64,000 nucleotides of DNA from Lampris incognitus (lineage: Eukaryota; Chordata; Actinopteri; Lampriformes; Lampridae). The DNA lies in NCBI RefSeq assembly GCF_029633865.1, contig NC_079216.1, positions 64,661,329 to 64,725,328 on the forward strand, read 5' to 3'. Positions 1-42,530 of the stretch are shown in pieces; position 1 is the first letter of the stretch, and each line of letters begins with the position of its first letter. The position numbers and the translations under genes are program-made. Under the pieces are notes generated by a model that worked only from the letters and a program-made list of their open reading frames with translations, searched no databases and had not been told where the DNA came from.

Positions 1-3000
1 GATCGTGTCTATTTCGGTTTCTTTGTTTCTGTCACTTTCCTCCGCTCCCTCTCCGTCCCCCTCTCCGTCTTCTCTTGCCGTCTCTCGCTCAAACATCCCG
101 TTCAAGTGCATCCCAAACCAAGTGACGTTGAAACGGTTGAACCCGTAACGGTTGAAACCGGACATGTCATATCCGTCTCTGTCTATGAAATCGCGATTAA
201 AACCGTCCCTGTCGTAGCCCCACTTGTCCCAGCCACTACAGTCATAGCCATCACGGTCGTAGCCATCATGGTCGTACCCATGTGAGTCGAAACCACCGCT
301 GTCAACGACACTGCCACCTAAACTACCGTGGTATGAATTTTGCTTATTGGAACCATTTTTGCCTTGTGTAAAGTTGTTGCTCATATAGGCACTCCCCTGT
401 GGGCGTGCCCGAAGTGATGTAATATTGCAAGGCGCACCGATGGTTATGGGCACATACACCACACAAAGCTGGTCCTGCAATGACATTACATCATCGGGGG
501 TGACGTCAAATGGCTTCATCTTCACGTATCTCTCTTTGGCCGGGTAGTAGACGTCCCCCTGGGCGTGGCTGTCTCTAGGCGTTTCCCTGTCTTTTAAAAT
601 GTACCTTACTGTGTCTACGTGCTGATGCTTCTCCTGCCACTGAGTCCAGAGCTTGTCCATAAACGCTATGTGTGAGAGGTAGAGAGGGTCGTAAGCAGCA
701 AGAGGAGTGGCCATGTGGCCACCCACCCACAGCCTGAAAAGCCCAGAGAAGGCCCGCAGGGATTGGGAGAACAGCTGGAAGTCTCCCTGGTTCACAATCA
801 TCTGGACGGTCACCGCATCCGGCAGCCAGACCTGAGGGGAATCATTGAAAACAGTCAAAGAGAGGCTTAACATCGGTAACAGCGATACAGTCCAAAATGA
901 GATCAGCTAAAATGTTGTGATCTCTGCATACAGATTTACTCGGTGTAATACAGGCTGTTGAATGAATATAAATCAGTCAAACCGAGGAGTTGAAGCGCCG
1001 TCTGAGACAAGGGGACCAATGGGAGTGGGGGGTCCCACCCTGGAAGGGATTGTGGGGGACACAGCCCAAACCTGGCTCACCATCTCCCCCAAATAGCCCG
1101 GCCTGCCAGGCAGCTGAGGAGTGCATCGCCCCAGAGTCCACTGTCCACTCGAAATAAGGAACCGCAATTTGGCATGACGACAATGACCGTAGCTCTCGCT
1201 CCACTAGCTGCAGGAAGTAGCGGTGCCAGGGGAGAAAGTAGGCATCGCCCCCTGCCTGTGGGGAGAACTCAGCTCTCAGCTGGGCGAAGCCCTCCCACAT
1301 AGCTGCCCAGAGATATGCGGACACACACATACATACGTACACACAAAGACATACAGAGATAGACTCACAAACAAACACAACCATGCAAGCACACATACAC
1401 GCAAAAAAGTAAATGCACAATCAAAAATGCAAAGATAAACATTGGAAATTTGAAAATTGTGACGAAACAAAACAAAGCATTTGTAACACTGAAAATGACA
1501 GTTGTACCTTGCTTGGATTGGAGCTTTCTGATTGCCCGTTGGTACAGTTTCCTCTCTCTCAGCGTGAGGTCTCTAATCTCTTTACGCTGGGTCAGGTGTG
1601 TGCAAACACACTCAACCTTGCCGCCATGTGTACATACACACTTTTCACAGCCTCGCTTGAGCCTCTCCCCCTGTCTCCTGTGGCTGCGTTGAGAGACACA
1701 GCCGCAGCCGCAGCCTTCGCCACAGCTCGTGTTAGAGCACTTGGTGCCTGGGGAGAAGCTAATTACCTCCGCTCCGTCTGGGACATCCTTCACCAGAGCC
1801 TGGCACTGGGTTTGGGACATGTATTCACAGGTATAAGTGAAATGCAGATCCTTGCGGGAGTCTACCTGTGCACCATCGCTGTCTCTCGCATCTTCCAGCT
1901 GAGTGAGGTTAAAATCTACGTCGTTGTCCCACCCGTCATATGTCAAGTCATGTCCCCCAGGTGTTCTGTCCACATATGGTATGTTGTATCCATGTATACT
2001 GTTGTTCCCGTGGGCAATAGGAAGGCCCTTGTTTGATTTGCGGAAGCAGCAGGCCCCCAGTTCACACTGGTCCCTGCAGGCATTGAAGGAAAGGAAGTTG
2101 TTGTTGCCGTTTCCAGTGCAGTAGAGGAATTCCTCACAGAGGCCAGAGGTGGGATTAAAGGCCCAGCGGCGTTGAATTTTCCGCCCACCCTGACACTTTT
2201 TCTCTGGCTTGGGCTCCCAACACGCCTAGAGGTGGGGAGGGGGGAGAAAGAGGGGCCTCTTACCCAGCCTGCTCTCCCATTTCACAGCTGAAAGTGACGG
2301 GGGTGCAAAAAGACAGGCAGCGTTGCTCATGGACAATCCTCACAAGGGAAAGAAGCATAGCTCCGCACTGCTATTGGGCTGGCCCAATACAGCAGGCTAA
2401 AACTACCTCTAAGTAAAACGGGAAGGACAAGAGGCAGCCACAATTCACATCAGCTAGGAACTAGCTAACTAGCTAGGAAGCCACTACTGGCTAGCACAGA
2501 GCAACTATCCTTAGAACACAAAGCAAAGCACTGAGGCAAACAAAAACACACGAAGAAGAGCACTACGCTTCGTGTCGATCTAAATACAGTGACACAACAC
2601 TTAGATGTGGGGGCTGGGGGGTTCCCCACATCTGACCCACCTCAAGCATTTCAAATGGTCTGGAGACCTGTCAGGTTACCAAACATATAATCAGCAATAA
2701 CCTCAAAACCAAAACATGACATACCAACCTACAACTACACAATGCAAAAACATACTCACACGTACAGTGCATCTGGAAAGTATTCACACCCCTTCACTTT
2801 CCCCACATTTTGTTATGTTACAGCCTTATTCCAAAATGGATTAAATTCCTTTTTTTTCTCATCAATCTACACACAATACCCCATAATGACAAAGTGAAAA
2901 AAGGTTTTGTAGAAATTTTTGCAAATTTATTAAAAATAAAAAACTGAAATATTGCATGTACATAAGTATTCACACCCTTTGCTATGACACTCAAAATTGA

Positions 3001-6000
3001 GCTCAGGTTCATCCTGTTTCCACTGATCATCCTTGTTTCTACATCTTGATTGGAGTCCACCCGTAGTAAATTCAATTGATTGGACATGATTTGGAAAGGC
3101 ACACACCTGTCTATATAATGTCCCACTGTTGACAGTACATGTCAGAGCAGAAACCAAGCCATGAAGTCAAAGGAATTGTCTGTGGCCCTCCAAGACAGGA
3201 TTGTATCGAGGCACAGATCTGAGGAAGGGTACAAAAAAAATTCTACCGCTTTGAAGGTCCCGAAGAGCACAGTGGTCTTCATCATTCGTAAATGGAAGCA
3301 GTTTGGATCCACCGGGACTCTTCCTAGAGCTGGCCGCCCAGCCAAACTGAGCAATCGGGGGAGAAGGGCCTTGGTCAGGGAGGTGACCAAGAACCCGATG
3401 GTCACTCTGACAGAGCTCCAGCGTTCCTCTGTGGTGATGGGAGAACCTTCCAGAAGGACAACCATCTCTGCAGCACTCCAGCAATCAGGCCTTAATAGTA
3501 GAGTGGCCAGACGGAAGCCTCTGCTCAGTAAAAGGCACATGACAGCCCGCTTGGAGTTTGCCAGAAAGCACGTAAAGGACTCTCAGACCATGAGAAACAA
3601 GATTCTCTGGTCTGATGAAACCAAGATTGAACTCTTTGGCCTGAATGCCAAAGGTCACGTCTGGAGGAAACCAGGCACCTCTCATCACCTTGCTAATACC
3701 ATCCCTACAGTGAAGCATGGTGGTGGCAGCAGCATCATGCTGTGGGGATGTTCTTCAGCGGCAGGAACTGGGAGACTAGTCAGGATCGAGGGAATGATGA
3801 ATGGAGCAAAGTACAGAGAGATCCTTGATGAAAACCTGCTTCAGAGCGCTCAGGACCTCAGAGTGGGGCAAAGGTTTACCTTTCAACATGACAACGACCC
3901 TAAGCACACAGCCAAGACAACGAAGGAGTGGCTTCGGGACAAGTCTGTGAATATCCTTGAGTGGCTCAGCCAGAGCCCAGACTTGAACCCAAGTGAACAT
4001 CTCTGGAAAGACCTGAAAATAGCTGTGTAGCGATGCTCCCCATCTAACCTTACAGAGCTTGAGAGGATCTGCAGAGAAGAATGGGAGAAATACCCAAATA
4101 TAGGTGTGCCAAGCTTGTGGCTTCATACTCAAGAAGACTTGAGGCTGTAATCGCTGCCAAGCGTGCCTCAACCAAGTACTGAGTAAAGGGTGTGAATACT
4201 TATGTACACGCAATATTTCAGTTTTTTATTTTGAATAAATTTGCAAAAATTTCTACAAAACCTTTTTCGCTTTGTCATTATGGGGTATTGTATGTAGATT
4301 GATGAGAAAAAAAAGGAATTTAATCCATTTTGGAATAAGGCTGTAACATAACAAAATGTGGGGAAAGTGAAGGGGTGTGAATACTTTCCGGATGCACTGA
4401 ATGCAAACACACAACCAAACGCTCACAACACACAATGAAAAGCTCAGACATAGACCTCTAAAGTGTTGTCACCATTTCCGGGCTCTCAGACTACATCTGG
4501 ATCCACTGGTGTAAAAGAATGGGCTTTTTGGATCCTATTTGCCAGTCATTGTGCTTTTAAAATATATTGGGTAATATACGTAGAAATGAGCATACAACAA
4601 GGTTATTACATATTTTAACACGATAGGGAATTTTCAGGGGTGCAAAAAAAATTTTTTTTTCTTTTTTTTTTTCTTTCATTTTTTTCCTCCCAAAGTATCT
4701 GTGTCTCAGAAACAGTAAGACCAACAGTCACCAAGCTTGGCAGGTAGGCTTCAGATCTCATCCACTACTCAGGCAAAAATAAAATAAAAACAAAAACGCA
4801 ACAGCAACAATCGGCCAGATGGTGGTATAATAAACAGATTTACAGTTTTGTTTATAACTTCTGAACCATATGGTCTAGAAGGAAAAAAAAAACTTTTTTC
4901 CAGATGTTCTTTGGGACCAGATACATACAGGCCATGATACAGGCCACAGCAATTTCTGTCTCACTACACTTTCCGCTGTTTCGATTAAAAAAAAAAAAAC
5001 AACCCTATTTTTGCAAGTCCAAACCGTCACCAAATGTGGCATTTGTCATCTCTAAAATCTCATGACCAAAACTTGTACAGAGAATTTTGGAATTGGAATT
5101 TTCTTAACTGTAGGCTATTAAAATCCAGGGTCTGGCACTTATTTCACATGTTGAGCCACAACTCATGATTGAAAATTCCAACTCATTAAACATCACATAT
5201 GGACTTGAAATTAGCATCCAAAATGTAGGCTATCTTGGCCTATAAGGGGTGCTACAGTGGAAAAATGTTTATAACTCATCAACAGTTTGACAGATTGTAG
5301 TCAAATCTGGAATGTTTTAGGGGGCGTCTGGATGGCATGACGGTCTATTCCGTTGCCTACCAACACGGGGATCACCGGTTCGAATACCCGCATTAACTCC
5401 AGCTTAGTCAGGCATCCCTACCCAGATAGCATCCGGATGTGGGCCACTTCATGCAATGATGCAGCACTGATGGCCTTCTTCTGGCACCGATGGCCTTCTT
5501 CTGGCACTGACAAAATGGATGTGAGCCTGAAGTGGTCCACATGCGTAATAGCAAATATAGTCCAAATCAAATGTGGACCTTTTTTTGGCGAAGATGCGGT
5601 GCTCTCGGCAACATGTAATCTGGATGTGACCCTGAAGTGGCCCGTGTGGTATATAGTGAATATGGCCCAAATATCACAAAACAAATATGGGCCACCTCTG
5701 GCAAATATGTGGCACATGTGGCATTGCTATGGCTTGGTTCTGGCCCTGATCTGGCAAACAGGACCAGCCCGCCCAAGTGCCATCATTCCACATGATACAT
5801 GGGCCGGATGAAAGTGTCGTGTGTGGGACGGGTCCGGGCCACAGCAATTTTGCTATCTGGGTGTGTATCTTGAGTTATACATCTGGGTACAGACACAACT
5901 GGCCACGTCTGCAGGTGGGAAGCCAGTTGTGGGTATGTATCCTGGTTGCTGCACTAGCGCCTCCTCTGGTCAGTCGGGGCACCTAATTGGGGGGGAGGGG

Positions 6001-9000
6001 GAACTGGGGGGAATAGCGTGATCCTCCCACGCACTACGTCCCCCTGGTGAAACTCCTCACTGTCAGGTGAAAAGAAGTGGCTGGCGACTCCACATGTATC
6101 GGAGGAGGCATGTGGTAGTCTGCGGCCTTCCCCAGATCAGCAGAGGGGATGGAACAGTGACCGGGACAGCTCGGAAAATAGGGTAATTGGCCAAGCACAA
6201 CTGGGGAGAAAAAAGGGGAAAAATACAAAAAAAAATTGGAATGTTCTGTCTTGGACAAATGCCACAACAGAATCCACAAGGTCAGCCTGACTGATGGAAA
6301 ACATGGCCAATGACATTTCAACAGCCCTTTCATGCTCCCGAGTATACCCAATCCTCTTGAAACTTGATATCTATCCATCCATCCATCCATCCATCCATCC
6401 ATCCATTATCCAAGCCGCTTATCCCAGTCAGGGTCGTGGAATGCTGGAGCCTATCCCAGCAGTCACTGGGCGGCAGGCGGGGAGACACCCTGGACAGGCC
6501 GCCAGGCCATCACAGGGCACTAGCGACAATTTAGTTCAGCCGATTCACCTGACCTACATGCCTTTGGACTGTGGGAAAACCGGAGCAATCGGAGGAAACC
6601 CACGCAAACGCCACACAGAGGACGACCTGGGATGACCCCTAAGGTTGAACTACTCCGGGGTTCGAACCCAGGACCTTCTTACTGTGAGGCGACCGCACTA
6701 ACCACAGCACCACCATGCCACCTCTTGACATCTGTTGTATTTATATCAATACTAAGTCTCTCCTACAGGTATGATGATATCAGAGACCAAAAATGCCACA
6801 GGCGTCATATACTGGCACACAGATCCACATCACGTACACACCCCACTGGTCACCAGGTGCTTGGACCCCGCCAATTACCACTAGCGGCTATAGTTAAGAA
6901 TGATCTTACTAATGACCGTGGTGCAGATGTTGCATCAACCAGGCTACGAGAACGCAATTTTGTCTAATCTGCCTTTGTCAGCACTATCATCAGGTGCAAA
7001 TACAGTTTATGCTACGTTCACAATTGCAAGTGGTTTCTTAACGCAGCTCTAAAATCAACCCAAATCCATCTTGACCTATTTAGAAATGCATAAAAGCAGA
7101 GGACAGCAGTCCTCAAAAGTGAAAAGTCAATATTACAGTTGGACACAGTTAAAGGCAATTATTTTACACCCCAATTGTGTTTTTACATTGGACTGAAACA
7201 GGGTTGGATCTGGAATCCCTTATTTGAGCATAAAATTTGCATCACGCTTTAGAGGTCTATTAGACATTGCTTTATGGGCAGTGTAGCACCAAAGCCTCTT
7301 CTAAGAATTCTCTAATAGTCTACCTATGTAGTCTATTCTACTTTTCTAGTCTGTCATCGAGGTACCTTTCTCAGCTGTCTGTGACACACTGGTCCCTTAG
7401 TGTTGGGGGGACAGGAGCAGCGAAACCCCGCAGGGTCAGATGTCAGGACGAAACATACACCTCCATTATGACAGGGGGTAGACAGACAGGGGTCTGGGAG
7501 AGGGGCGGCCATCTGCAAACTAGCTACTTAACATACAGGTTGTTGTGCATATTAGTGTTTGCTTGTTAGGAGTGTATTTACGATCTGTGTGTTTGGGTGT
7601 GACAGGAAAAGAGAGAATGAAGAGAGTTATAAAGAAGGATCAAGAGAGAGAAGAGAGAAAGGGCAGACAAAAAGAAAAGCTGAGATGAGCTCACCTGTAA
7701 CAGGAGCCTCGCATGTGACCTTCCCTGATGTGCAGGTGCAAATGGTATTCAGGTGAGTCTGCCAGTGCTGGCCGTCCTCGACTTCACGCCCCTCCCAAAC
7801 ACAGTGTCGCCTTACACACTCACAGCCCTCCAAGTGCTGCACACGTGACTGTAGGTCTGCATTCTATACAGAAAACCCCAACGTCATATCGTATCATATC
7901 ATATCATATCATTTCATATCACATCTTGTCATATCATGTCATATCATATATCATATCATATCATTTCATATCACATCTTGTCATATCATGTCATATCATA
8001 TATCATATCATATCATATCATGTCATATATCATATCTTGTCATATCATACGTATCATATCATATATTATACGTATCATATCATATATCATATCATATATA
8101 ATTTCATATCACATCATACGTATCATATCATATCATATATCATCATATCATATATAATTTCATATCACATCATACGTATCATATCATATATCATATCATA
8201 TATCATCATATCATATATCATCATATCATATTATATCACATCATATCATATCATCACATCACGTCACGTCACATCATATCATATATCACATCACATCACA
8301 TCACATCATATCACGTCAGGTCATGTCATGTCATGTCATATCATATCATATCATATCATATCATATCATATCATATCATAGTTGTGACAGGGCATGGTTC
8401 GGGCATTGGTTTGTAAAGGAGTATCAGAGGTAGTTCATTTTGGCCAATGATGAACTCCTTTGACCAGAAAACCTCTCTTACATGTCTTGTGTATTTGAAC
8501 CGGGGGGGGGGGGGGGGGCTATGTACTGTGTCACTCTGAATATATGCGGGTATACGTATGTGATGATTAGACACAAGTATGCACTGTTGTTTGAAGCACT
8601 GGTTAAAGAGAACAGTGAGTGGTCTTTACCTAGAAAGGGGATTTTTGATTGAGTGTGGTACCTATTATCTGACTGTTTGTTGATAATTAATTACACACGA
8701 CGACCCTTGGACGCTCCTCTTTCAACGTGTCCTTCCTTAACCTGCCTAACCCAGTCATGTTATACCTCCAGTTGTTATGCCTTTGAGATCAGGAATCAGG
8801 AACACTGCCATTTCACACGAAACGAAACGAAATATCGTGTCCCCCCCCCCCAGCCCAAAGCAGTGCAACACAAAGACAAAAACACACCCCAAAACTACAA
8901 GAACACACATACTAATGTAAGCGGGTATTTTGTTGCCCGGTGCGGGATTCGATACGAGGTATACTGTACCACAAGGCGACATCGCTAACCGCTCGGCTAA

Positions 9001-12000
9001 AGGGTCAGACCCGTTAGCTAGGGGCTAACGTGTCTTATTAGTAGTTTACACTAACACATATATCGAAGCTAATAAATAAACAAATAAACAAACAAGTAAA
9101 CAAATACCTAAATAATCGGGATGACTGTCGGTCTGCATGGGCTAGCAGTTAGCTTAGCCTGCCCCGCTTCTGCGTCCTGTCAGACCGCCCTCGGTGTTAC
9201 CTCCCTCGGTCGCAGCTCCAGGCAGGGGCCGTGGTCCCCGGGCCTAAGAGAAGCGGCGCACCAAGCTCTCCCCGCCCATCCGGCGCCAGCTCTCCCCGCC
9301 ATCAAACGGAGACAAAACTCAAACGCAGACATGGACAAAGACACTGCACGGGCGGCACTGGGCGAGGCCGCGGCGAACGTGAACTCGCGCCGCCATCTTT
9401 CCACACCGGAATCGGAAAATCCGCGTGCGCGCAGGAGGGGTTCGTTCCTGCTAAACGCGATACCAGCTAATTTCAATAATTAGCTTTCCCTGTTGTTAAA
9501 TGTGAGCCAGTTACCGGAGTCCTCTTGGATATTTATCTCACTGCAGTATCCTCTGTTTTTGTGTGATCTTGTTGTAAACTACTAATACCACCACCAACCG
9601 AAACCCTCACGTGAAAGACAGAAAAAACCCCGCCTTCAGAACAAAGTGGCGGCATGTGTCTGCACATGCGCAGACACTGGACAGTATGTGGAAATTAAAC
9701 TGCATATTTTTTTCTAATTACTTTTAATTAAGTGAAATTAACTTGTTTTAAGCGAGGGCAGTGCGTTCTGAAATTAATTGAAAAAAATTAGTAGTGTAAA
9801 CTACTAATAAGACACGTTAGCCTCTAGCTAACGGGTCTGACCCTTTAGCCCCTAGCTAACGGGTCTGACCCTTTAGCCGAGCGATCAGCGACGTCGCCTT
9901 GGGGTGCAGTACACCCCGTATCGAATCCCGCACCGGGCAAGTACATAACCGGTTACATTGTGTTCTCATTAATTCATTTGAGGTAACATTTCATAGCCAA
10001 AGTTCTCTTCCAACGCCGAAAACGGCAAGAGGTGACAACGACTGAAGTACCAAGATGTCATCTTCCATTTATGCAAGGGAGCGTCTGGGGATGACTTGCC
10101 AACGGGAATGGATTGGAAATCCCAGGATTCATTGCAAGAATGACGCTATGACAGACGAAGCGGTCCCGGGGCACAAGTGTGCATTTTTAATCGTCTTGAT
10201 TTTTTATTTCGCTCTTGAAATTTGAAGTGTGCGATCTTCACATTTTATCAACCTACTGTAAACTACTAATAAGACCCTTTCGCCGAGCGGTTAGTGATGT
10301 CGCCTTGTGGTGCAGTACACCCCGTATCGAATCCCGCACCGGGCAAGAAAGTAACCGGTTACACTACTTTACTAACGATCATCTGTAGCCTTTTGGGTGT
10401 GCATGCTTTAGTCAGTGTTTCTCAACCCAGTCCTCAAGGACCCCCTATCCTGCAGATTTTCATTGTAACCCTGCATAGGTAGCCCTGCCTGTACTTACTC
10501 AACCAGACATCTCATAGCACTTAATTATGCAAGGTGTGCAAACTCAGACATTCATTGCTGATTGGTCGAATAACTACAAACAGGTACCTATTCAGGATTG
10601 CAAAGAAAATCTGCAGGATAGGGGGTCCTTGACGACTGGGTTGAGAAACACTGCTTTAGATCTTTATTTAGTTCTCTCTCTTAAACATCCATCCACCCAC
10701 TATCCAAGCTGCTTATCCTGCTCTCAGGGTCACGGGGATGCTGGAGCCTATCCCAGCAGTCACTGGGGCGGCAGGTGGGGGGACACCCTGGACAGGCCGC
10801 CAGGCCGTCACAGATTACAGTCGTATTAAAACAAAAATAAAACAAGCCAACAGCATCATGTTGTCCCACACCCATGATGCACTGCACTCTTTGGGCCTTT
10901 GTTAGACCCCCAGCTTGTGGAAGACAAGTAGTTCTACAGTGTGATGAACAAACAAATTAACCACCAGGCAGAAGACAGGATCCACAGCCCCCCCCCCCGC
11001 CCCCTTTCAGATTTCATCAGGGTGGGCACAAAAAGATTAGTCCTTGGTCCAAAAAATAAATATTTGGCAGACTGGATTTTCTGTGTTTTACAGCCAATTA
11101 ATAACAAAATTCAGCTTATAAACCGGTTCAAAATGGACGTATTCTATGGAGGTGGGTTTGTTTCAAAACATAATAAATGTAGAGAAACAAATAAATGCAG
11201 TATGTCATGCAGTGTAATATATTTCAGGATTAGTTGGATACCTGGGCTTTGACCATGTCTAGCATACGAGCCAGTGCCTCCAGCTTCTCCTCCATCGCCC
11301 TCATCCTCTTGTCATCTGGGGTCTGTGAATCCGACTTTACCCCCTGAGGAGACCCCGGAGGCCCCAGGACCACGCCTCTCTGGACCCCCTGCGGATAAGG
11401 GCTGGTTTGGTCCCTTGGCTGGTGGGGGGGTTGGGATTTACCGCTGGAAGCATCCTGCTGGAACACTTCATGGCTGTCATCCAAGAAATCTGGGCTTGGG
11501 TTGTGTACAAAACGTGACGGAGGCAGAGTATCTAGACAAGAAGAGAGAAAACTGGCAGTCGGCGGGAGGGGATAAGAGGGTAAGCTTGACAAAGCCTGTT
11601 CAATAAACAAACATCCTGATGGACACTGTAAAAAAAACTTAACTAAGGAAAAAAAACCAAATAATCTTTTGGGGCTGTTTCCATCAGAGAGCCAAAAGAT
11701 TTGATCTCAGAAAAACATACCGTTGTGTGCACATATCAGCCAGGGTAGGCTAACTCCACGACTATAGTCTACAGCATAAGAATGTGAGAGGTGCCAAAGG
11801 TCATTATTTTAGGACGGATGTGCAAATTGAAGGGTTTTTTTTCAGTAACATTTTATTTGTCTTCATGCATTTCATTTCATGCACTTGCGTACATGAAATG
11901 AAATGAAATGCCGTAATTTTTCGATGCCTTACGCAGAAAATCCCGGCAGGAAAGCGTTCCCAGACGGTGGCAGAAACGGAATTCCACGGCTTGTCATATT

Positions 12001-15000
12001 GTGGCGCCCGGACAACTCTGAAAAACGATGCGGACGAGTGCACTGCGGGTGGTCAGCGAGTGAAGGCAAACACGGGAACGAGGTGGGGAGGAGGGTGAGA
12101 CGAGGACCGAAAAGTCCCTAACAACTGTAGCCTCCGGCACGCAGCGCAGCCGGAAATCCCCACAGCACGCTGCCGGAGACGCACACACAGGCGCTTACAT
12201 GCAAACACTTACATGCATAAGCATGGACACATACACACACATACAAACCGGTGTGCAGAACAAGCACAACACAGGTTAACAACTACATCCTATCTGCATA
12301 GATTTAGGCCCTCAGCATGGAGAAATACCAAAAAGCTTGCAGGCCAAAGAACTTTTGTCCTTTTTTTGAATTAATTATGTTCTCTGGGTATGATATATAT
12401 AATGCACAAAGCAGAAGCAGCTGGTTTTCTCTTCTTATTCGTTGGTTTTTTTTTCCCCTTTTGGTGTTGCACCTGTATGAAAACACGGCATACCTACCGA
12501 CTATCGTTCATATGACCTTCAGAGAGAAGACTTATTTACACTCAGCCCGTGCTCGTACCTGTAATGTTGGCACAGCTCCACGGACGACTCACATATGCTT
12601 TCATGGAGATCTCTGCCGTCTTCACAAACCCCTACAACCGATAAAGAAACACAAGTCCACACATCACTAATGCCCCTTTTCCACTGCATGGTACCGGCTC
12701 AACTCGACTCTACTCGACTCGCTTGACTTTTTGGAGATTTTGTTTTCCAGTGCAGATAGTATCCCCTCATGATCATTCGAGGGTGTGTTGACTAGTTTTT
12801 TTTTAAAGATTTTAATTTATATTTAAATAAATATACATGTATTTATATTTTATTTATTTATTTATAGAGGTATTTTCATGTCACCTTTTAGTATGGGCTC
12901 AGCTCACTTGGAACCTCAACGGAGGTGGCACCAAAAAAGGTACCTGGTACCAGGTACTATCCCTAACTTTTGCCCAATGGAGAACCAAAAAAGCGGGTGG
13001 AGCTGAGCTGAGTCGAGCCGGTACCATGCAGTGGACAAGGGGCATAAGATAGAAAGAAAGCCACTTTATTTTGCCATTGTATTCTTACAATGAATTTGTT
13101 TTCTGCTTTTAACCCATCCTATTGTACAGGAGCAGTGGGACGCTGCAGCGCCCAGGGACCACCTCCCAGTTCTTCTTCCCATTGCCTTGCTCAGGGGCAC
13201 AGGCAGGAGTATGAACCCTAACATGCATGTCTTTTGATGGTGGGAGGAAACCCACGCAGACATGGGGAGAACATACAAACTCCACACAGAAAGGACGTGG
13301 GGGGTTTGAACCCAGGACCTTCTTGCTGTGGGGCGACAGTGCCGTGCCGCCTCCAGCATGGTATTTATCTTACCGTTATCGACATTGTAAGAGGTTTTCA
13401 GCGTAAAAATTTAAGAGGCACACTGAGACCATGAAAATAAGAACATTTAATGAACGTGTCACTGAATACCATGTATACCACGCTCTCCAATTGTGCTAAA
13501 GTGTGAACTGTAACGTTCCCCCTCCTCTTCAGGTGAAGAGCTGTGAGAAAATGATGGGTGATTTGCCCCTCTTCCATTTCAGGCACAGGTTTTCAGCAAA
13601 AAAAAATTGAACAACTTTTCAGTTACGTGTGAGTTTAACCTGATTTTTTTTCCGTCAAATGTGGTAAATGTGATAAACCTACCCACCGGAATCCAATGAG
13701 TACAATTAGCACAAATAAAGATTACTGAAACGAAGAAAACATTCCAGACAGCGGTCAGAGACAATGACCCTTATCAACACGAGAAATATACTGGACCCTT
13801 TTGTCTAAAATGGCAGTTATGGGCAGCACAATGGCCCAGTGGTTAGCACTGTTGCCTCGCGGCAAGAAGGTCCTGGGTTCGAACCCCACGCCATCCCAGG
13901 TCAGCCAGTCAGCCAATTCTATTTGTATAGCCCAGTATCACAAATTAAAAATGTGCCTCAAGGGGCTTTACAGCAACACAACATCCTGTCCTTAGACCCT
14001 CGCATCGGCTAAGGAACAACTCCCTAAAAAACACTAAAAAAACAGGTCCTTTCTGTGTGGAGTTTGCACGCTCTCCCCGTGTCTGACATGACACAAAAGA
14101 CTTGTATGCTAGGGTTAATAATGTTGGGGTTGATACTGTCTGTATCCCTGAGCAAGGCATGGCTAAGAGAACTGGAGTTGGCCCTTGGGCGCCGCACATC
14201 GGCTGCCCACTGCTCCTAGCTACATGGCTAGGATGGGTGAAATGCAGAGGATGAATTTATCCATGGGGACTAATACACAGCGTAACTTCTTCTTCTTCTT
14301 CTTATGCTTAATGTGTTACTGGTATCAGTATACCTTGTCGGTGAAGGTGAGTGCACAGTATTTGTGTGAAACTCACCACAAACTTGCTGTCGGTGTCTCC
14401 CGGTATGCTGGCCAGCGTGACAACCAGGTCTTGAGGCAGCGCCAGACTAATCCTTTCTTCTCGTTTTCTTTCCAGGACCACAGCCTCACGGCAGTCTATA
14501 AACACAGCCAGTCTACTGGGCTCCAGACCAAGTGCCAGCTGAACCCAGTTTGCACCAGAGAAGGGGTTTCCCCCCGGCAAGTATACGCTACCGAGACCCC
14601 GAGCGCCTGGCCCAGCCTGGTAGTCCAAACGCAGCGTGTTACTGACAGTGGAGGAGAAGATCTGGAAAATCGTGGAGGACTTAGAGGAGAGAGACAGCAG
14701 GGTCGCTCTCGAGTCCGGTGCCTGACGCCCAACCAGGTGTACTCCCATGCTACCTTGCAGGGTGGAGAAGAGGAAGTGGGAGTATTCTCGAGGCAGGGTC
14801 AGGTGAGGTGCCTTGGAACGGAGTTTATATACGGAAGTCCCAGATGTCTCGCCCTGCAATCTGGACACACCTTTTATTGGGTGGGACATGTTTAGCGCAG
14901 CCAGAAGGTCAATCACTAGGGGACAGATAAAACACAAATCAGAGAATATACGACACACACACACACACACACACACATCCATGACCATTCATCCATATGT

Positions 15001-15145
15001 GTTTGGATAAATGTACTGGGTCATCCATCCATTATCCGAACCGCTTATCCTGCTTTCAGGGTCGCGGGGATGCTGGAGCCTATCCCAGCAGTCATTGGGC
15101 GGCAGGCGGTGAGACACCCTGCACAGGCCGCCAGGCCATCACACA

Positions 15146-15220
<75 letters not shown>

Positions 15221-16039
15221 ATACCTAAGGGCAATTTGGTTCAGCCGATTCACCTGACCTACATGTGTTTGGACCGTGGGAGGAAACTGGAGCCCCCAGA
15301 GGAAACCCACGCAGACACGGGGAGAACATGCAAACTCCACACAGAGGACGACCCCGGATGACCCCCCGGGGTTGGACCACCCCGGGCCTCGAACCCAGGA
15401 CCTTGTTGCTGCGAGGCGACCGCGCCGCATACTGGGTCATACCCCCCATCCAATGTTCAAGAGGGTGATTTCTGTGTCACGGTGAGTTCGAGTCTGTGCG
15501 AGAGTGGACCAGAATGAAGCCATTCATTAGGGCCTTCACACATGAGCGCCTCAGTGAGCTCAGACAGGACACCGGGGCATTACACAACACCTCTCGGCCA
15601 TCATGATAGGTCTGACCCGTCTGCACGTTAGTGCTACACAGGCTTTGTAAGAAACTCCCAGGTCTTAAAAAGAAAGAAAAGAAGAAGAAGAAGAAGAAGA
15701 GATGCCTCTTCACCGTTGGGCGCTGCAAAACGACACGGGGGGGACTATTTTCCTCATAACGTGGCAAACCTCAAGACGAGGAAAAGTTGGTCAGAAGGTG
15801 CAAAGGTAAAGGTTGCGCGCATTTCAACGAAAACCTGCAAAGCGATGGGAGATAAGCAAGGTCAGCATCGCCTGCGCGTGCGCAGCGCCTCTGAACAACG
15901 CGCCCCGCGCGCGCGCGCGCGTCTACCTACCGTTGTGGTGGCTCGGGGTAGGTTGACTCCGCACGGACAGCGGCGCGCTCCGGAGCGCGAGCAGACTCAG
16001 CTCCACGAGCAGCAGAGTCCCCAGTCCGCCGGTCCCCAT
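1..16039 (-). CDS. Secreted TSPN-VWC-EGF-Kunitz-tyrosinase-fold multidomain protein (3' end outside window)
   Basis: Nine minus-strand exons join in phase: 15931-16039, 14377-14915, 12559-12631, 11242-11531, 7695-7836, 7366-7493, 1508-2225, 983-1302 and 1-831 (open at the window edge), giving at least 1050 residues. The order is: signal peptide (residues 1-25), thrombospondin-N/LamG-like domain (about 37-240), a linker with a short coiled coil (about 315-337), VWC domain (340-384), EGF domain (385-420), Kunitz domain (429-481, six cysteines), a cysteine-rich VWC-like stretch, tyrosinase fold (about 640-900) and xxG(Y/F)(D/N) pentapeptide repeats. The N-terminal order resembles NELL proteins; the C-terminal half does not. 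The start ATG is followed by a leucine-rich signal core, and a GTAGGT donor closes exon 1. Seen: domains, phases and splice sites. Inferred: an extracellular matrix role. I cannot give a gene name. The donor of the 983-1302 exon (GTTTGA) is weak. Confidence 0.85.
1508..2225 (-). CDS. Exon 7: Kunitz domain, cysteine-rich VWC-like region, start of tyrosinase fold
   Basis: The acceptor at 2226 has a long pyrimidine tract ending CCTCTAG. The exon begins ACWEPKPEKKC and carries a full Kunitz pattern with six cysteines and the RRWAFN and GNNNFLSFNAC signatures. After a linker comes a cysteine-rich stretch with SCGEGCGCGC and CEKCVCTHGGKVEC, then the tyrosinase opening RKEIRDLTLRERKLYQRAIR. The donor is GTACAA. 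Exon 8 continues with FLPWHRYFL, the conserved CuA block. Confidence 0.85.
2765..4399 (+). mobile_element. Tc1/mariner transposon with IR/DR ends, 1.6 kb
   Basis: The element has near-identical terminal inverted repeats of about 220 bp (2765-2982 and 4183-4399), each beginning CAGTGCATC. The AAGTATTCACACCC motif occurs at both the outer and the inner end of each arm, which is the IR/DR layout of the Sleeping Beauty group. The left flank is TA; the right flank is AA, so one copy of the TA target duplication has mutated. It lies in intron 6 of the tyrosinase-fold gene. The arms are still very similar, suggesting a fairly recent insertion. Confidence 0.95.
3161..4150 (+). pseudogene. Tc1-like transposase with a premature stop
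   Basis: The reading frame opens MKSKELSVALQDRIV and has paired-like helix-turn-helix DNA-binding halves (residues 1-120), the GRPAKLS linker and a DDE catalytic domain: LWSDETK, HDNDPKHTAK and SPDLNPSEHLW, so all three acidic residues are present. A TAG at residue 290 (after DLKIAV) cuts the usual ~340-residue protein. The same frame continues to about 4150 with RCSPSNLTELE, so the gene is probably dead but only lightly damaged. Confidence 0.9.
4440..5319. other. AT-rich intronic DNA, no gene seen
   Basis: The stretch holds long A and T tracts (around 4645-4690 and 4985-5000) and no exon or clear repeat boundary that I can support. It lies in intron 6 of the minus-strand tyrosinase-fold gene. 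Confidence 0.5.
5320..6235 (+). mobile_element. tRNA-derived SINE (family 1), split by a MITE
   Basis: This SINE has RNA polymerase III box-A-like (ATGACGGTCTA) and box-B-like (GGTTCGAAT) motifs, a central conserved body and an A-rich tail. It is flanked by a degenerate duplication of about 11 bp (CTGGAATGTTT left, TTGGAATGTTC right). A MITE at 5421-5887 interrupts it. Further copies in the window are at 30716, 31509, 36513, 36916 and 39490. Confidence 0.85.
5421..5887. mobile_element. Non-autonomous DNA element (CCCAGAT termini) nested in a SINE
   Basis: The ends are CCCAGATAGCA and ATCTGGG in inverse orientation, and the element interrupts the SINE exactly between CCCTA and TACAGACAC, giving a TA target duplication (5419-5420 and 5888-5889). 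Comparison with intact SINE copies fixes the boundaries. Related copies lie at 20466-21117 and 23222-23649. No coding capacity is seen. TA duplication fits a Tc1/mariner-type mover, but the autonomous partner is unknown. Confidence 0.8.
6362..6720 (-). mobile_element. tRNA-derived SINE (family 2, GGAT tail), full length
   Basis: Read on the minus strand it begins GGCATGGTGGTGCTGTGGTTAG, has a box-B-like GGGTTCGAACCC, the widespread fish segment TGTGTGGAGTTTGC-like body, and a 3' part ending GCGGCTTGGATAATGGATGG with a (GGAT)n tail. Other copies or fragments are at 10689-10815, 15020-15430, 24219-24345, 35733-35960 and 54395-54525. Confidence 0.8.
7366..7836 (-). CDS. Exons 5 and 6: VWC domain and EGF-like domain
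   Basis: Exon 7695-7836 (acceptor GTGCAG, donor GTGAGC) encodes a VWC-type pattern, including GCECVRRHCVWEG and ICTCTSGKVTCE. Exon 7366-7493 (acceptor CTCTCCCAG, donor GTACCT) encodes one EGF domain: DPCLSTPCHNGGVC, then GFRCSCPPNTKGPVC. Phases agree on both sides: phase 1 into the EGF exon, phase 0 into the Kunitz exon. Both exons are too short to stand out as ORFs and were found by domain pattern. Confidence 0.8.
7888..8381. repeat. (TATCA)n pentanucleotide array, about 490 bp
   Basis: A long run of TATCA/ATATC units with variants (TGTCA, CGTCA, ACGTATCA). The open frames across it, which read as endless HIISYHI, are artefacts of the repeat. It lies directly beside the VWC exon (7695-7836) of the tyrosinase-fold gene. 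Confidence 0.95.
8788..9440 (-). repeat. Unclassified interspersed repeat X (with nested tRNA-like element)
   Basis: It shares a head (ATCAGGAATCAGGAACAC), a middle (CAGCAGTGCAACAC-like, then GGGCTAGCAGTTAGCTTAGC) and a GC-rich end containing the sequence complementary to AAGATGGCGGC with copies at 19350-20230, 20524-20748 (partial) and 40205-40850. The GC-rich end carries YY1- and ETS-type motifs. No protein frame is seen. A small tRNA-like element sits inside at 8926-9050. Confidence 0.6.
8926..9050 (+). mobile_element. Small tRNA-like element, TGTAA...TTACA ends, copy 1
   Basis: It begins TGTAAGCGGG and ends GTTTACA, flanked on both sides by CTAA. Its complement contains a tRNA-like promoter pair: TAGCCGAGCGG (box A) and GTATCGAATCCCGC (box-B-like). 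It is nested in repeat X. Copies 2-4 are at 9795-9957, 10257-10363 and 18902-19038. Confidence 0.7.
9795..9957 (-). mobile_element. Small tRNA-like element, copy 2 (with internal duplication)
   Basis: Same family as 8926-9050 in the opposite orientation, starting TGTAAACTACTAATAAG and ending CCGGTTACA. A segment of about 28 bp containing AGCTAACGGGTCTGACCC is present twice in tandem. The flanking 4-mers do not match, unlike in the other three copies. Confidence 0.7.
10257..10363 (-). mobile_element. Small tRNA-like element, copy 3
   Basis: It runs from TGTAAACTACTAATAAG to CCGGTTACA with CTAC directly repeated on both sides (10253-10256 and 10364-10367). The CGTTAGC-containing part near its left end is shorter than in other copies. 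Confidence 0.75.
10413..10653. mobile_element. hAT-type palindromic MITE (CAGTGTTTCTCAACCC ends), copy 1
   Basis: The two ends are long inverted repeats (CAGTGTTTCTCAACCCAGTC against its complement) around an AT-richer core of about 240 bp. Flanks CTTTAGT and CTTTAGAT are an imperfect 8-bp-type target duplication. Copies at 25262-25505 and 56629-56870 have clearer 8-bp duplications. Confidence 0.85.
12671..13044. mobile_element. PIF/Harbinger-type MITE, copy 1
   Basis: Inverted ends TGCCCCTTTTCCACTGCATG and its complement flank a 374-bp element with TAA duplicated at both sides (12668-12670, 13045-13047), the 3-bp TWA duplication typical of PIF/Harbinger. A second copy is at 43715-44101 with TTA on both sides. 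Confidence 0.8.
13053..13357 (-). mobile_element. tRNA-derived SINE (family 2, variant tail)
   Basis: A minus-strand copy with the box-B-like GGGTTCAAACCC and the 3' variant ending in a sequence complementary to CACTTTATTTTGCCATTG instead of the GGAT tail. It sits directly after the Harbinger-type MITE. Confidence 0.75.
13824..14282 (+). mobile_element. tRNA-derived SINE (family 2, variant tail) with an insert
   Basis: The SINE starts GGCAGCACAATGGCCCAGTG and continues past GGTTCGAACCCC; at about 13903-14041 it is interrupted by another fish repeat (the family with GCCTCAAGGGGCTTTACAGC, seen also at 44400-44515 and 52720-52905), then resumes with GTCCTTTCTGTGTGGAG. Confidence 0.65.
14377..14915 (-). 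CDS. Exon 2: thrombospondin-N-terminal (LamG-like) domain
   Basis: This 539-bp exon lies between a CCCCTAG acceptor and a GTGAGT donor. It encodes a domain starting VIDLLAALN, the hallmark opening of TSPN domains (compare the LLDLL starts in NELL and thrombospondins), with the GANWVQLALGLE and LAVFIDCREA strands. Exon 3 (12559-12631) gives the final strand (FVKTAEISMKAY followed by RPWSCAN). TSPN domains usually bind heparan sulfate or calcium; whether this one does is not visible here. Confidence 0.8.
15020..15430 (-). mobile_element. tRNA-derived SINE (family 2) with expanded CA array
   Basis: A nearly full copy on the minus strand (GGTTCGAGGC box-B-like at its head, ATAATGGATGG tail). A (CA)n run at 15143-15220 has grown inside it at the site where other copies carry a short GT run. 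It lies in intron 1 of the tyrosinase-fold gene. Confidence 0.8.
15931..16039 (-). CDS. Exon 1: signal peptide of the tyrosinase-fold protein
   Basis: The ATG at 16039 opens a 36-codon exon whose first 25 residues form a typical signal peptide (MGTGGLGTLLLVELSLLALR and on). The exon ends in phase 1 at a GTAGGT donor. The next exon supplies two bases to make a valine codon, so the N-terminus runs directly into the LamG-like domain. Upstream DNA (16040-16620) is CpG-rich, as expected for a promoter. Confidence 0.8.
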
Positions 16040-22059: not shown

Positions 22060-23039
22060 ACCCATACCATGGGCACTAACACACCCCCATACCGTCACAG
22101 ATGCTGGCTTTTGAACTTTGCGCTGATAACAATCTGGATGGTCCTTTTCCTCTTTAGCCCGGAGGACACGACGTCCATGTGAAATGTGGACTCGTCAGAC
22201 CACAGCACACTTTTCCACTTTGGGTCAGTCCATCTCAGATGAGCTCGGGCCCAGAGAAGCCGGCGGCGTTTCTGGGTGGTGTTGATATCTGGCTTTGGCT
22301 TTGCATGGTAGAGTTTTAACTTGCACTTGTAGATGTAGCGACCAACTGTGTTAACTGACGATGGTTTTCCCAAGGGCTCCTGAGCCCACGTGGTCATATC
22401 CTTTACACAATGATGTGGGTTTTTAATGCAGTGCCGCCTGAGGGGTCGAAGGTCACGGGCATTCAACGTTGGTTTTCGGCCTTGCCGCTTATGTGCAGAG
22501 ATTTCTCCGGATTCTCTGAATCTTGTGATGATATTATGGACTGTAGATGATGAAATACCCAAATTCCTTGCAACTGTACGTTGAGAAACGTTGTTCTTAA
22601 ACTGTTGGACTGTTTGCTCACGCAGTTGTTCACAAAGTGGTGAACCTCGCCCCATCCTTGCTTGTGAACGACTGAGCCTTTCGGGGATGCTCCTTTTATA
22701 CCCAATCATGACACTCCCCTGTTCCCAGTTAACCTGTTCACCTGTGGAATGTTCCCAACAGGTGTTTTTTGAGCATTCCTCAACTTTCCCAGTCTTTCGT
22801 TGCCCCTGTCCCAGCTTCTCTGGAACGTGTTGCAGCCATCAAATTCAAAATGAGTGAATATTTGCAAAAAACAATAAAGTTTATCAGTTTGAACATTCAA
22901 TATCTTGTCTTTGCAGTGTATTCAACTGAATATAGGTCGAAAAGGATTTGCAAATCATTGTATTCTGTTTTTATTCACGTTTTGCACAACGTCCCAACTT
23001 CCTTGGAATTGGGGTTTGTATATGCTAACCACATGATGA

Positions 23040-28173: not shown

Positions 28174-31100
28174 ATGGCTGTCACTGAGCTAAAATCATGG
28201 CGGTTGTCTCTAGGCAGGGCTCTCATCTACTCCCTGGTACTCTTTGTCTGTCTGCACACAGCCACAGGTATAACCATTTTAATTCACACTTATTACCCAC
28301 ATATTTAGTCCCCATTCACAGTTTACCTCTTTCCCTCACAGTTAATACATGCACATGTGTGTGTTTGCGTGTGTGTGTTTGCATGTGTGTGTTTGCAGGC
28401 ATGTCTGGATGGGGTGGATGTTTGGATGGTCAAGACATATTTGCGACGATCAGAGAAAACAGCCTCAGAGGAGAACTCATCACTGAGCTCATCGCAGACA
28501 CCACAGGAGAATGGGTTCAATGGAGGCTTGAAGGGAAAGATGCCGACTGGTTCTTCCTGGATGGGCGAAACCTTCGTCTCAACACATCGTCGGAGAAGGT
28601 CCTAAACCGTGAGGTAAATGCGTCAAGACATTTCCCTGTGCCTATTTATCTATAATGTAGCTGCAGTATTTCCACTGTAAGAAAGTTGTTCAGCTTTATC
28701 ATCAACCCTGTCTGAGGTCTCAAGATCTCTTCTCATCTCATCATCAGTCGCTTCTCCGGGGTCAGGTCGCGGTGGCAGCAAGCTAAGTAGGGCACTCCAG
28801 ACGTCCCTCTCCCCAGCAACGCCCTCCGGCTCCTTCTGGGGGATTCCAAGGTGTTCCCAGGCCAGATTGGACATGTAGTCCCTCCAGCGAGTTCTGGAAC
28901 TACCCCGGGGTCTCCTCCCAGTTGGACGTGCCTGGAAAACCTCCAAAGGAAGGCGCCAAGAAGATCAGATGCCTGAACCACCTCAACCTGCTCCTTTCGA
29001 CATGAAGAGCAGCAGCTCTACTCCGAGCTCCCTCCGGATGTCTGAGCTCCTCATCCTGTCTCTAAGGCTGAGGCCAGACACCCTACGGAGGAAACTCATT
29101 TCAGCTGCTTGTATCTGCGATCTCATCCTTTCGGTCACTACCCAAAGCTTATGACCATCGGTGAGGTTTGGACCGACTGGTAAATTGAGAGCTTTGCCTT
29201 CCGGCTCAGCTCCCTCTTCACCACAACGGTCCGGTACAACATCCGCCGGTCAATCTCCCGCTCCATCCTACCCTCACTCGTGAACAAGACCCTGAGATAC
29301 TTTACTTGAACTCCTTCACTAGGGGCAACAACTCATCCCCAACCCTGAGGGAGCATTCCACCATTTTCTGGTAGAGAACCATGGCCTCAGACGTGGAGGT
29401 ACTGACTCTCATCCCGGCCATTTCACACTCAGCTGCAAACCACCCCAGTGCACGCTGGAGGTCGTGTTCTGATCAAGCCAACAAAACCACATCATCTGCA
29501 AAGAGCAGAGATGCAATTCTGAGGTTCCCAAAACCGGACACACTCCTCACCTTGGCTGCACCTTGTCCATGAATATCACAAACAGAATCGGAGACAAGGG
29601 ACAACCTTGGTGGAGTCCGACACCCGCCGAAAACGTGTTTGACTTTGTGCCGAGAATGCGGACACAGCTCGCACTTTGGTTATACGAGGACCAGATGGCT
29701 TGTAGCAACTGCCCCGGTATCCCATACTCCCGCAGTACCCCCCACAGAGTGTCCCGGGGTACATGGTCGTAAGCCTTCTCCAAGTCCACAAAACACATGC
29801 AGACTGGCTGGTCAAACTCCCATGTCCCCCTCAGCACTTCCGCAAGGGTAAAGAGTTGGTCCGTTGTTCCATAGCCAGGACGGAATCCGCATTGTTCCTC
29901 TTGGATCCAAGGTTCGACAATTGGTTGGAGCCTCCTTTCCAGCACCCTAGAGTAGACTTTCCCAGGGAGGCTGAGCAATGTGGTGCCCCGATAATTGGAG
30001 CACACCCTCCAGCCCCGAGATCTCAAGATGTCTCATCTTTTCTTCCCAGTGTGAACAGTAATAAATTTACCCCATGATTTTCCCCTTAGATCAAACCCAT
30101 CCTCTCTCACTGTCATCCTCTTCCCAGTGTGCAGCCTTTGACCATCACTGCTGGTGAATCAGATCAGTAATCTCCGTTTTCCTCTTTCTCTCTCTCTCAG
30201 GTTCAGGGCCCTGTCCTAATGGCTGAGCTTGAATGTTACGAAGAGGAAATGCTTCAGGTATTGACAGTGCATTCATTCATCCTTCCCCGTGTCATTAGTG
30301 TCCCCCTAGATGTCTTTTTTTTCATGTTTTTATTCCTTTTTGTTCAAGAGCGTGTACAACATCATGGTGGAGGTTCTCAACGAGAACGATAATTCACCAG
30401 TGTTTGCAGAGAACACGGTCCAATCTCTTATTGTCACCGAGGTAAGACACCGAAATACAAACATACGCACTTACATATGGGTAGATTTACACATGCACAT
30501 ACTCGCATATGCATCTGAGCCCAAAAATACTGACGTCAAATAAATCTCTGTGTACGTCAGCATGGCTGCTTGTGTTTTTGTCGTACAGCTGACACCTGTG
30601 AATACAGTGGTGTTTACTGTCCAGGCCACGGATGAAGATGATGACAAAATCATTTACTCTATTGACCCAACATCTGTAAGTTCAGCCATTATGTTCTTTA
30701 AGTAAGCACACATCAGGGCGCCCGGGTGGTGTAGCGGTCTATTCTGTTGCCTGCCAACATGGGGATCGCTGGTTCGAATCCCCGCGTTACCTCCGGCTTG
30801 GCTGGGCGTCCCTACAGACACAACTGGCCATGTCTGCGGGCGGGAAGCCGGATGTGGGTACGTGTCCTGGTCGCTGCGCTAGCGCCTCCTCTGGTCAGTC
30901 AGGGCGCCTGTTCAGGAGGGGAGGGGGAACTAGGGGAGGGACTAGCGTGATCCTCCCACGTGCTATGTCCCCCTGGTGAAACTCCTCACTGTCAGGTGAA
31001 ATGAAGCAGCCGGCGACTCCAATGTATCAGAGGAGGCATGTGGTAGTCTGCAGCCCTCCACAGCGACCGGGACGGCTCAGAAGAGAGGGGTAATTGGCCA

Positions 31101-40850: not shown

Positions 40851-41465
40851 TGAGACGTAGCGTGCACAGGGTCAGCCCAAGGCATGCATGAGCAAACTAA
40901 ATGGCTGCTTAGGGTCACCGTCATGTGAGCACAAAGTGGTGCTGGGGTAAGAGGCAACAATATCCTGCTTAGGGTCCTAAAAGGGCTTGGGAATGGCCCC
41001 GAGTGTACAAAACCACCAACGCCAACCTAGAAGGTAAGACAAACGTGCAGAATACAAGGGTGCTTTATAGCATCAGCAATAAAGCACGTCGGTGATGCAA
41101 TTAAAAAAGACCAACAGACACTGGGAGCCGTTACAGATAAAAATAAGAGCCATACTTTATTTCACCATTTATCTCACATGGGGATCAGAGGGCAAATATT
41201 GGTTCAGAAGATGTATTTTAGTGTTCAGCGATCAGGTTAGTAACTTTCTTCCAAGATCCGTTGCCTAGCGGGACCCAGGATTGCAATACCATTTCTTCGC
41301 AAATTGCTTCAGTGCTTTTGATGTATATCCAGTTATTTTCCACAGCTCTGCGGAAAAACAAAGCTCGTAACTTTATCTGGAATTGACCATCTCATACTCG
41401 ACGAGAAAAGAAATGGAGAATTGTGGAGGAAAAGGGACCCGGAGAACTTTATATGATATTATAAT

Positions 41466-42530
41466 TTGCTTTCCATCGTTGCGGCTTTAGAGAAAGCATA
41501 TGACAGGGTGCTGAGAGAGGAGGTGTGGTATTGTATGAGGAAGTCGGGAGTAGCAGAGAAGTATGTAGGAGTGGTGCAGGATATGTATGAGGGAAGTGTG
41601 ACAGTGGTGAGGTGTGTGGTTGGAATGACAGATGGGTTCAAGGTGGAGGTGGGATTACATCAAGGATCGGCTCTGAGCTCTTTCTTGTTTGCAATGGTGA
41701 TGGACAGGTTGACGGACAAGATCAGGCAGGGGTCTCCGTGGACTATGATGTTTGCAGAGGACATTGTGATCTGTAGTAAGAGTAGGGTGCAGGTTGAGGA
41801 GAGCCTGGAGAGGTGGAGGTATGCACTGGAGAGAGGAGGAATGAAAGTCAGTAGCAGCAAGACAGAATACCTATGCATGAATGAGAGGGAGGACAGTGGA
41901 ATGGTGAGGATGCAAGGAGTAGAGGTGACGAAAGCATAGGAGTTTGAATAATTGGGGCCAACTGTCCAAAGTAACGGGGAGTGCAGGAGAGAGGTGAAGA
42001 AGAGAGTGCAGGGAGGGTGGAGAAGAGTGTCAGGAGTGATTTGTGACAGAAGGGTACCAGCAAGAGTTAAAGGGAAGGTTTACAGATGGTTGTGAGACCA
42101 GCTATGTTGTATGGTTTGGAGACAGTGGCACTGATGAAAAGACAGGAGGTGGAGCTGGAGGTGGCAGAGTTGAAGATAAGAAGATTTTCATTGGGAGTGA
42201 CGAAGAAGGACAGGATTAGGGTCAAGTATATTAGAGGGACAGCTCAGGTTGGAAGGTTTGGAGACAAAGCAAGAGAGGCAAGATTGAGACGGTTTGGACA
42301 TGTGTGGAGGAGAGATGCTGGGTATATTGGGAGAAGGATGCTGAATATGGAGCTGCCAGGGAAGAGGAGAAGAGGAAGGCCAAAGAGGAGGTTTATGGAG
42401 GTGGTGAGGGAGGACATGCAGGTGGCTGGTGTGACAGAGGAAGATGCAGAGGACAGAAAGAGATGGAAACAGATGATCTGCTGTGGCGCCCCCTAATAGG
42501 AGCAGCCGAAAGTAGTAGTAGTAGTAGATT
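41466..42530 (+). mobile_element. RTE-type LINE, 5'-truncated and decayed
   Basis: The frame 41466-41939 has reverse-transcriptase blocks (LEKAYDRVLREEVWYC, GLHQGSALSSFLFAMVMD, MMFAEDIVICS, where the usual ADD is AED). After a stop and frame changes the C-terminal frame 42086-42496 reads RRFGHVWRRDAGYIGRRM and RRRGRPKRRFMEVVREDM. The 3' end is GGAGCAGCCGAAAG followed by (TAG)n. Confidence 0.85.

Follow-up and report, generated by a model that had tools for sequence, protein, structure and literature searches.

The window analysed here, a stretch of 64,000 nucleotides from Lampris incognitus (64661329–64725328 of its contig), contains at 1–16039, on comparison with other fish proteins, the 5′ part of a kcp locus, in which exons 6–10 form a cassette encoding EGF, Kunitz, VWC-like and tyrosinase-fold domains, G[YF]D repeats and a cysteine-rich end. 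Exons 1–5 match the starts of KCP proteins and VWC and VWD exons follow on the same strand, and the EGF–Kunitz–tyrosinase part is therefore placed as a cassette within kcp, between its exon 5 and the VWC/VWD exons. The locus would give rise to two secreted proteins with a common N-terminus, one of which carries a tyrosinase fold that is probably non-catalytic; for this reading as a whole we estimate a probability of about three in four.

Gene structure

Joining nine minus-strand exons, from 16039 to 1, gives a single frame of 1,069 amino acids that begins at an ATG at 16039, with GT–AG borders and end phases of 1, 0, 1, 0, 1, 0, 1 and 0 for the first eight exons, as the earlier note on this DNA had claimed. 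Its set of nine exons also stands but is incomplete, as exon 9 runs past the window edge to -418 (coordinates below base 1 are given as negative numbers) and a tenth exon closes the frame with TAG at -736 (Table 1). The ten-exon frame encodes 1,273 amino acids, contains zero internal stops and ends CHDW-stop. The flank was read in the organism's own genome as four 10-kb stretches.

A gene model from Boreogadus, P0001, aligns with 100% of the 1,069 amino acids at 53% identity, which is more than chance, and when placed in the Lampris genome (1.48 Gb) it has eight matching places, six in the window, one over its edge and one just outside. The gene part is real and conserved, and slightly larger than first described. 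A processed pseudogene is ruled out by the ten exons, the lack of an internal stop and the conserved sequence.

Table 1. Exons of the cassette-containing frame, in window coordinates with negative numbers past the edge
Feature	Coordinates	Strand	Content and remarks
Exon 1	15931..16039	-	ATG and signal-peptide-like N-terminus with hydrophobic core; end phase 1
Exon 2	14377..14915	-	TSPN domain (profile and model evidence); end phase 0
Exon 3	12559..12631	-	End of TSPN; end phase 1; 17/24 residues as in P0001
Exon 4	11242..11531	-	Linker and start of coiled coil (coiled coil by eye); end phase 0
Exon 5	7695..7863	-	End of coiled coil and VWC-like half; end phase 1; donor would serve both cassette route and kcp route
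Exon 6	7366..7526	-	EGF; start at 7526 or 7523 fits exon 5 phase, 7512 fits exon 4
Exon 7	1508..2225	-	Kunitz, cysteine-rich linker, VWC-like, start of tyrosinase fold; end phase 1
Exon 8	983..1302	-	Tyrosinase fold, CuA half; 1/3 His kept
Exon 9	1..831 (on to -418)	-	Tyrosinase fold, CuB half (0/3 ligand His), G[YFW][DN] five-residue repeats, C-terminal part
Exon 10	-544 to -736	-	Cysteine-rich end of frame; outside window

Several other features were noted in the window. Intron 6 holds, ahead of the Kunitz exon, a long open frame (3119–4030, plus strand) that by eye is like a Tc1-type transposase, and a minus-strand frame at 22098–22838 matches Pfam HTH_Tnp_Tc3_2 (3.1e-10). Frames at 29547–30032 (minus) and 41457–41939 (plus) look by eye like pieces of a retroelement reverse transcriptase. 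An EF-hand exon lies at 50350–50550 (minus), with a Pfam EF-hand match under the cut-off and PDB matches to calmodulin-type chains; it presumably resembles calumenin, which we take to be a neighbour of KCP in human.

Domain architecture

The single open frame holds, in order, a signal peptide, TSPN, coiled coil, VWC-like, EGF, Kunitz, VWC-like, tyrosinase fold and G[YF]D repeats, in agreement with the proposal that these domains share one chain. Pfam identifies Tyrosinase (1.7e-21) and Kunitz (5.1e-7) clearly in the whole model, both above their cut-offs, and EGF (0.0016) and VWC (0.0066) weakly, both under them; with single exons as queries EGF rises above its cut-off and VWC stays under. TSPN was not recognised by Pfam in the whole model, and its assignment comes from a profile built with kcp relatives over this part, which matches chicken NEL (3.2e-6) and thrombospondin-1 (2.9e-5), and from a predicted model of exon 2 (mean pLDDT 72, pTM 0.69), whose best PDB matches are again NEL (4.3e-9) and thrombospondin-1 (7.1e-9). 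By analogy with thrombospondin and NEL, the TSPN and coiled coil may serve assembly and matrix binding.

Exon 9 encodes ten G[YFW][DN] units, from about residue 970, spaced in five-residue steps with one ten-residue step. In the predicted model of a relative, P0016, the repeat region (residues about 390–450) has a pLDDT near 90, so the repeats may form a small, ordered fold rather than a flexible linker. After residue 40 the protein has no 19-residue window above a hydrophobicity of 1.6.

Placement in the kcp locus

Exons 1–5 match the starts of P0021–P0024, proteins from four other fishes that are named kielin/chordin-like or have KCP-type VWC arrays; for exon 2 identity is 120/179 with P0021 and 111/188 alignment columns with P0001. 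VWC exons begin at about -2623, on the same strand and ~1.9 kb past exon 10, and are followed by pieces that match the C-terminal (VWD) part of P0020, out to -23316. These downstream kcp pieces follow the order of P0020, P0022 and P0024, and the arrangement of tandem VWC repeats and then VWD is given by tblastn pieces of P0022 and P0020 that lie collinearly between -3264 and -23316, where VWD was identified through P0020, using the Pfam list precomputed for that protein. The 1,273-aa frame stops ahead of both.

The N-terminus had been described as NELL-like, which is right for the fold; the exons themselves, however, match kielin/chordin-like and KCP-type proteins, and kcp goes on downstream, on which grounds a NELL orthologue is rejected. 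The possibility that two unrelated genes had been joined is also rejected in that form, because the cassette sits inside the kcp locus on one strand. The arrangement suggests that annotations of kcp in fishes should be checked for exons that are split, missing or fused.

Two proposed splice routes from exon 5

Frames and phases point to two routes out of exon 5. Its phase 1 end is in frame with exon 6 when this starts at 7526 or 7523, and equally with a kcp exon at -3614, where the junction would read ...CEAPVTGCIHFGIKYDH, like P0024; the exon at about -2623 has a phase-1 acceptor too. Joining exon 4 to 7512, with exon 5 skipped, is likewise in frame. Splice sites were scored with a crude matrix against all AGs or all GTs of the stretch, by which 51%, 27% and 14% of AGs score better than the acceptors at 7526, 7523 and 7512, respectively, so that the better-scoring 7512 suits exon 4 and not exon 5. 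The residues that follow 7526, VASLQMAA, are similar to VASFQTAA in the cod model. The exon 8 donor (TCG|GTTTGA) is bettered by 49% of all GTs, and its junction is backed by homologues. An AATAAA occurs at -1090, 354 bases past the stop, though signals of this kind are common by chance.

Exons 1–5 would encode a secreted N-terminus made up of the signal peptide, TSPN, coiled coil and VWC-like part, and the locus would most likely yield two secreted proteins that have it in common, through a choice of splicing. One would end after the cassette, at the CHDW-stop of the 1,273-aa frame, and the other would skip the cassette and carry the VWC array. We infer that the cassette is exported through the kcp N-terminus, because exon 1 has a signal-peptide-like start and none was found in introns 4–6: a crude scan of these introns for a substitute signal-peptide exon, with thresholds that exon 1 passes, gave 0 candidates, the reverse-strand null giving 2.

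The tyrosinase fold and its copper site

The fold of type-3 copper proteins is present, as judged by Pfam and by the fold match of P0016, and the set of six ligand histidines is incomplete. The residues at the six copper-ligand positions are R, G, H, S, R and I, and because only 1/6 histidines is kept the domain is probably non-catalytic; the count includes an assumption on which histidine of the HH pair binds copper. Loss of ligands, which the earlier note does not mention, extends to the relatives, compared as 43 chosen family rows (5 not spanning all six sites) with 6 references. The CuB1 histidine is found in 0/43 family rows and that of CuA3 in 36/43, with 3 gaps. Among the 38 rows with all sites, two keep no ligand, 23 keep one, six keep two, six keep three and one keeps four, and the references have six ligands in 6/6 cases. 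The predicted model of P0016 (pLDDT 78) still matches bacterial tyrosinases. In the extracellular matrix the tyrosinase fold would probably serve, without catalysis, for binding or as a spacer.

The family profile finds hemocyanins at 2.3e-78 and bacterial tyrosinases at 1e-35, far above TYRP1 at 1.3e-6. Lampris itself has eight further Pfam tyrosinase matches on five other contigs, and four of these loci, when translated (L011, L014, L015 and L016), have an intact HxxxH copper motif. A PDB search with the stretch L009 gave no match, and L009 and L012 are not tyrosinase-like in the strand translated. The low rank of TYRP1 and the separate loci rule out a TYR/TYRP duplicate and uphold the view that this is a tyrosinase-fold lineage apart from TYR, TYRP1 and DCT.

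Relatives and distribution

The relatives are gene models, i.e. predictions, and this includes all those with the full domain order. Among the 26 matches listed in the first search, two have the full order, P0001 of Boreogadus and P0008 of the characin Metynnis, and 17 (15 of them assigned to fishes) are cassette-only, lacking the kcp N-terminus and starting at EGF, Kunitz or later. The same 26 include P0020 of the croaker Larimichthys, which passes from tyrosinase into VWC/VWD, the KCP-type P0021–P0024, with the N-terminus joined to VWC, the limpet P0026 and a bryozoan protein, P0025, with coiled coil–VWC–EGF–Kunitz–tyrosinase behind an unrelated N-terminal part.

A search at 1e-10 listed 52 matches, 27 of them organism-assigned, all to fishes, including Amia, Arapaima, eel, Albula and a shark. 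The shark protein, P0029, has coiled coil–VWC joined to EGF–Kunitz–tyrosinase and begins at the TSPN end, without signal peptide and TSPN core. Vertebrates with the same domain order, which the earlier note had proposed to look for, are thus represented by gene models in cod and characin, and by the shark for all but those first two parts. No organism-assigned tetrapod was among the matches listed in three word-based searches, 25/52 of the matches at 1e-10 carrying no organism assignment.

At 1e-8 the 94 matches listed add molluscs and a crustacean; many of those that have no Tyrosinase domain match just 13–24% of the query, probably its repeats, and were left out. In Octopus P0065 one chain holds TSPN, coiled coil, VWC (under its cut-off), EGF, Kunitz, tyrosinase and the repeats, and a fish-only TSPN profile scores it at 5.9e-5, the best value among 715 shuffled sequences being 0.31. 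The source name of Elysia P0063 is kielin/chordin-like, and in the shrimp Macrobrachium P0068 the tyrosinase part is followed by VWC repeats. A maximum-likelihood tree was built from 35 chosen rows (29 of the 43 family rows and the six references). Its branching of shark, Amia and teleosts agrees with fish kinship, the closest neighbours of the window are Centroberyx and Diretmus, and the molluscs group together; several of the deep forks are weak, and long branches lead to the bryozoan and to three reference rows. The earlier note's suggestion that a lineage of vertebrate tyrosinases turned into a matrix protein is unlikely, because the domain order is already present in molluscan models.

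Two details of the C-terminal end were also observed. In Elysia P0063 and Tegillarca P0064 a second EGF and the opening of a Kunitz-like stretch come after the repeats or C-terminal part, and molluscan proteins may hold several EGF–Kunitz–tyrosinase units in a row. The C-x-[GD]-W that precedes the stop in exon 10 is common to 20/27 listed models, and shark P0029 goes on there with VWC-like sequence; the teleost stop may thus have been acquired at what was once an exon border.

Alternative readings

The cassette could instead be an independent gene that lies within an intron of kcp, has a promoter and a 5′ exon of its own and is never joined to the kcp N-terminus. It has its own stop codon, the exon 6 acceptors compatible with the exon 5 phase score poorly, and the cassette-only models (17 of the matches listed), such as P0006 of Thunnus, which starts MKTKACW, are what such a gene would resemble. 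None of these models, however, has by eye a signal-peptide-like start, which would be unusual for a protein that is rich in cysteines and has N-glycosylation motifs, introns 4–6 gave no candidate exon to supply one, and models from cod, characin, shark and octopus join the parts, so that we regard a nested gene as unlikely. Another possibility is one giant protein that begins with TSPN, includes the tyrosinase fold and extends over the whole VWC array to VWD, an arrangement that may be ancestral. VWC repeats do follow tyrosinase in Larimichthys P0020 and shrimp P0068, and shark P0029 continues into a VWC-like start, but exon 10 here ends with TAG directly after CHDW and most listed models share its C-x-[GD]-W end, making a giant product from this locus very improbable.

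That the domain is still active, as an unusual type-3 copper enzyme, gains something from the kept fold, with the P0016 model matching bacterial tyrosinases at 9.4e-13 (TM 0.72 by target), and from the relative P0041, which has 4/6 ligand positions. Given the single ligand in the window and a CuB1 histidine found in no chosen family row, against complete sets in all six references, activity is barely credible. A secreted, probably non-catalytic cassette joined to the kcp N-terminus is the reading preferred here.

Comparison with known systems

The order TSPN, coiled coil, VWC, EGF is shared with NELL/NEL, as is the best TSPN fold match. NELL and NEL carry several VWC and several EGF domains, whereas the protein described here has one EGF, two VWC-like parts, a Kunitz domain and a tyrosinase fold, and its exons match kcp. 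KCP is described, in the accessible parts of one paper (PMC10315795), as a secreted protein that modulates BMP/TGF-beta and has a VWD in addition to 18 cysteine-rich domains; the locus, the first five exons and the downstream VWC array and VWD are the same here, but those parts mention no EGF, Kunitz or tyrosinase fold for KCP, and the cassette product would be without the VWC array.

For the tyrosinase-fold domain, molluscan hemocyanins and bacterial tyrosinases provide the nearest solved sequences and folds, from which it differs in having lost most copper ligands and in the other domains attached. Vertebrate TYR, TYRP1 and DCT have a distantly similar fold; they differ in their separate loci in the Lampris genome and weak TYRP1 match, and the present protein has no membrane-spanning-like C-terminus. 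Animal tyrosinase surveys, in their accessible text, give TYR and two TYRPs for vertebrates (PMC3334994, PMC3658974). A further parallel is Tuphoxin of ascidians, which the accessible text describes as secreted and matrix-associated, with a tyrosinase domain accompanied by EGF and thrombospondin-type parts (PMC9395347). It is unlike the fish protein in having a TSP1 repeat, not TSPN, and in its copper-binding histidines, which are reported as present; the word ‘kielin’ is absent from that text. No such protein was found in literature on tyrosinase with kielin, VWF type, Kunitz or EGF-like domains, or on inactive shark or vertebrate forms, a coverage that takes in few of the subscription papers.

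Our own reading is of an ancient KCP architecture of which fishes have kept a dead tyrosinase module. In its fullest form, to which we give even odds, the ancestor of molluscs and vertebrates had a KCP with TSPN–coiled coil–VWC–EGF–Kunitz–tyrosinase fold–G[YF]D repeats and a copper site already decaying, the module survives in fishes as an alternative ending of kcp, and its loss left the KCP of tetrapods. If true, KCP function in fishes would partly rest on a dead tyrosinase, which has not been considered in BMP work. If sharks and bony fishes have one more tyrosinase-fold lineage, apparently of pseudoenzymes and located within a gene for a BMP modulator, views of both the history of the tyrosinase family and the origin of KCP would change. 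The idea that a tyrosinase fold without catalysis can work outside the cell as a binding module thereby becomes testable.
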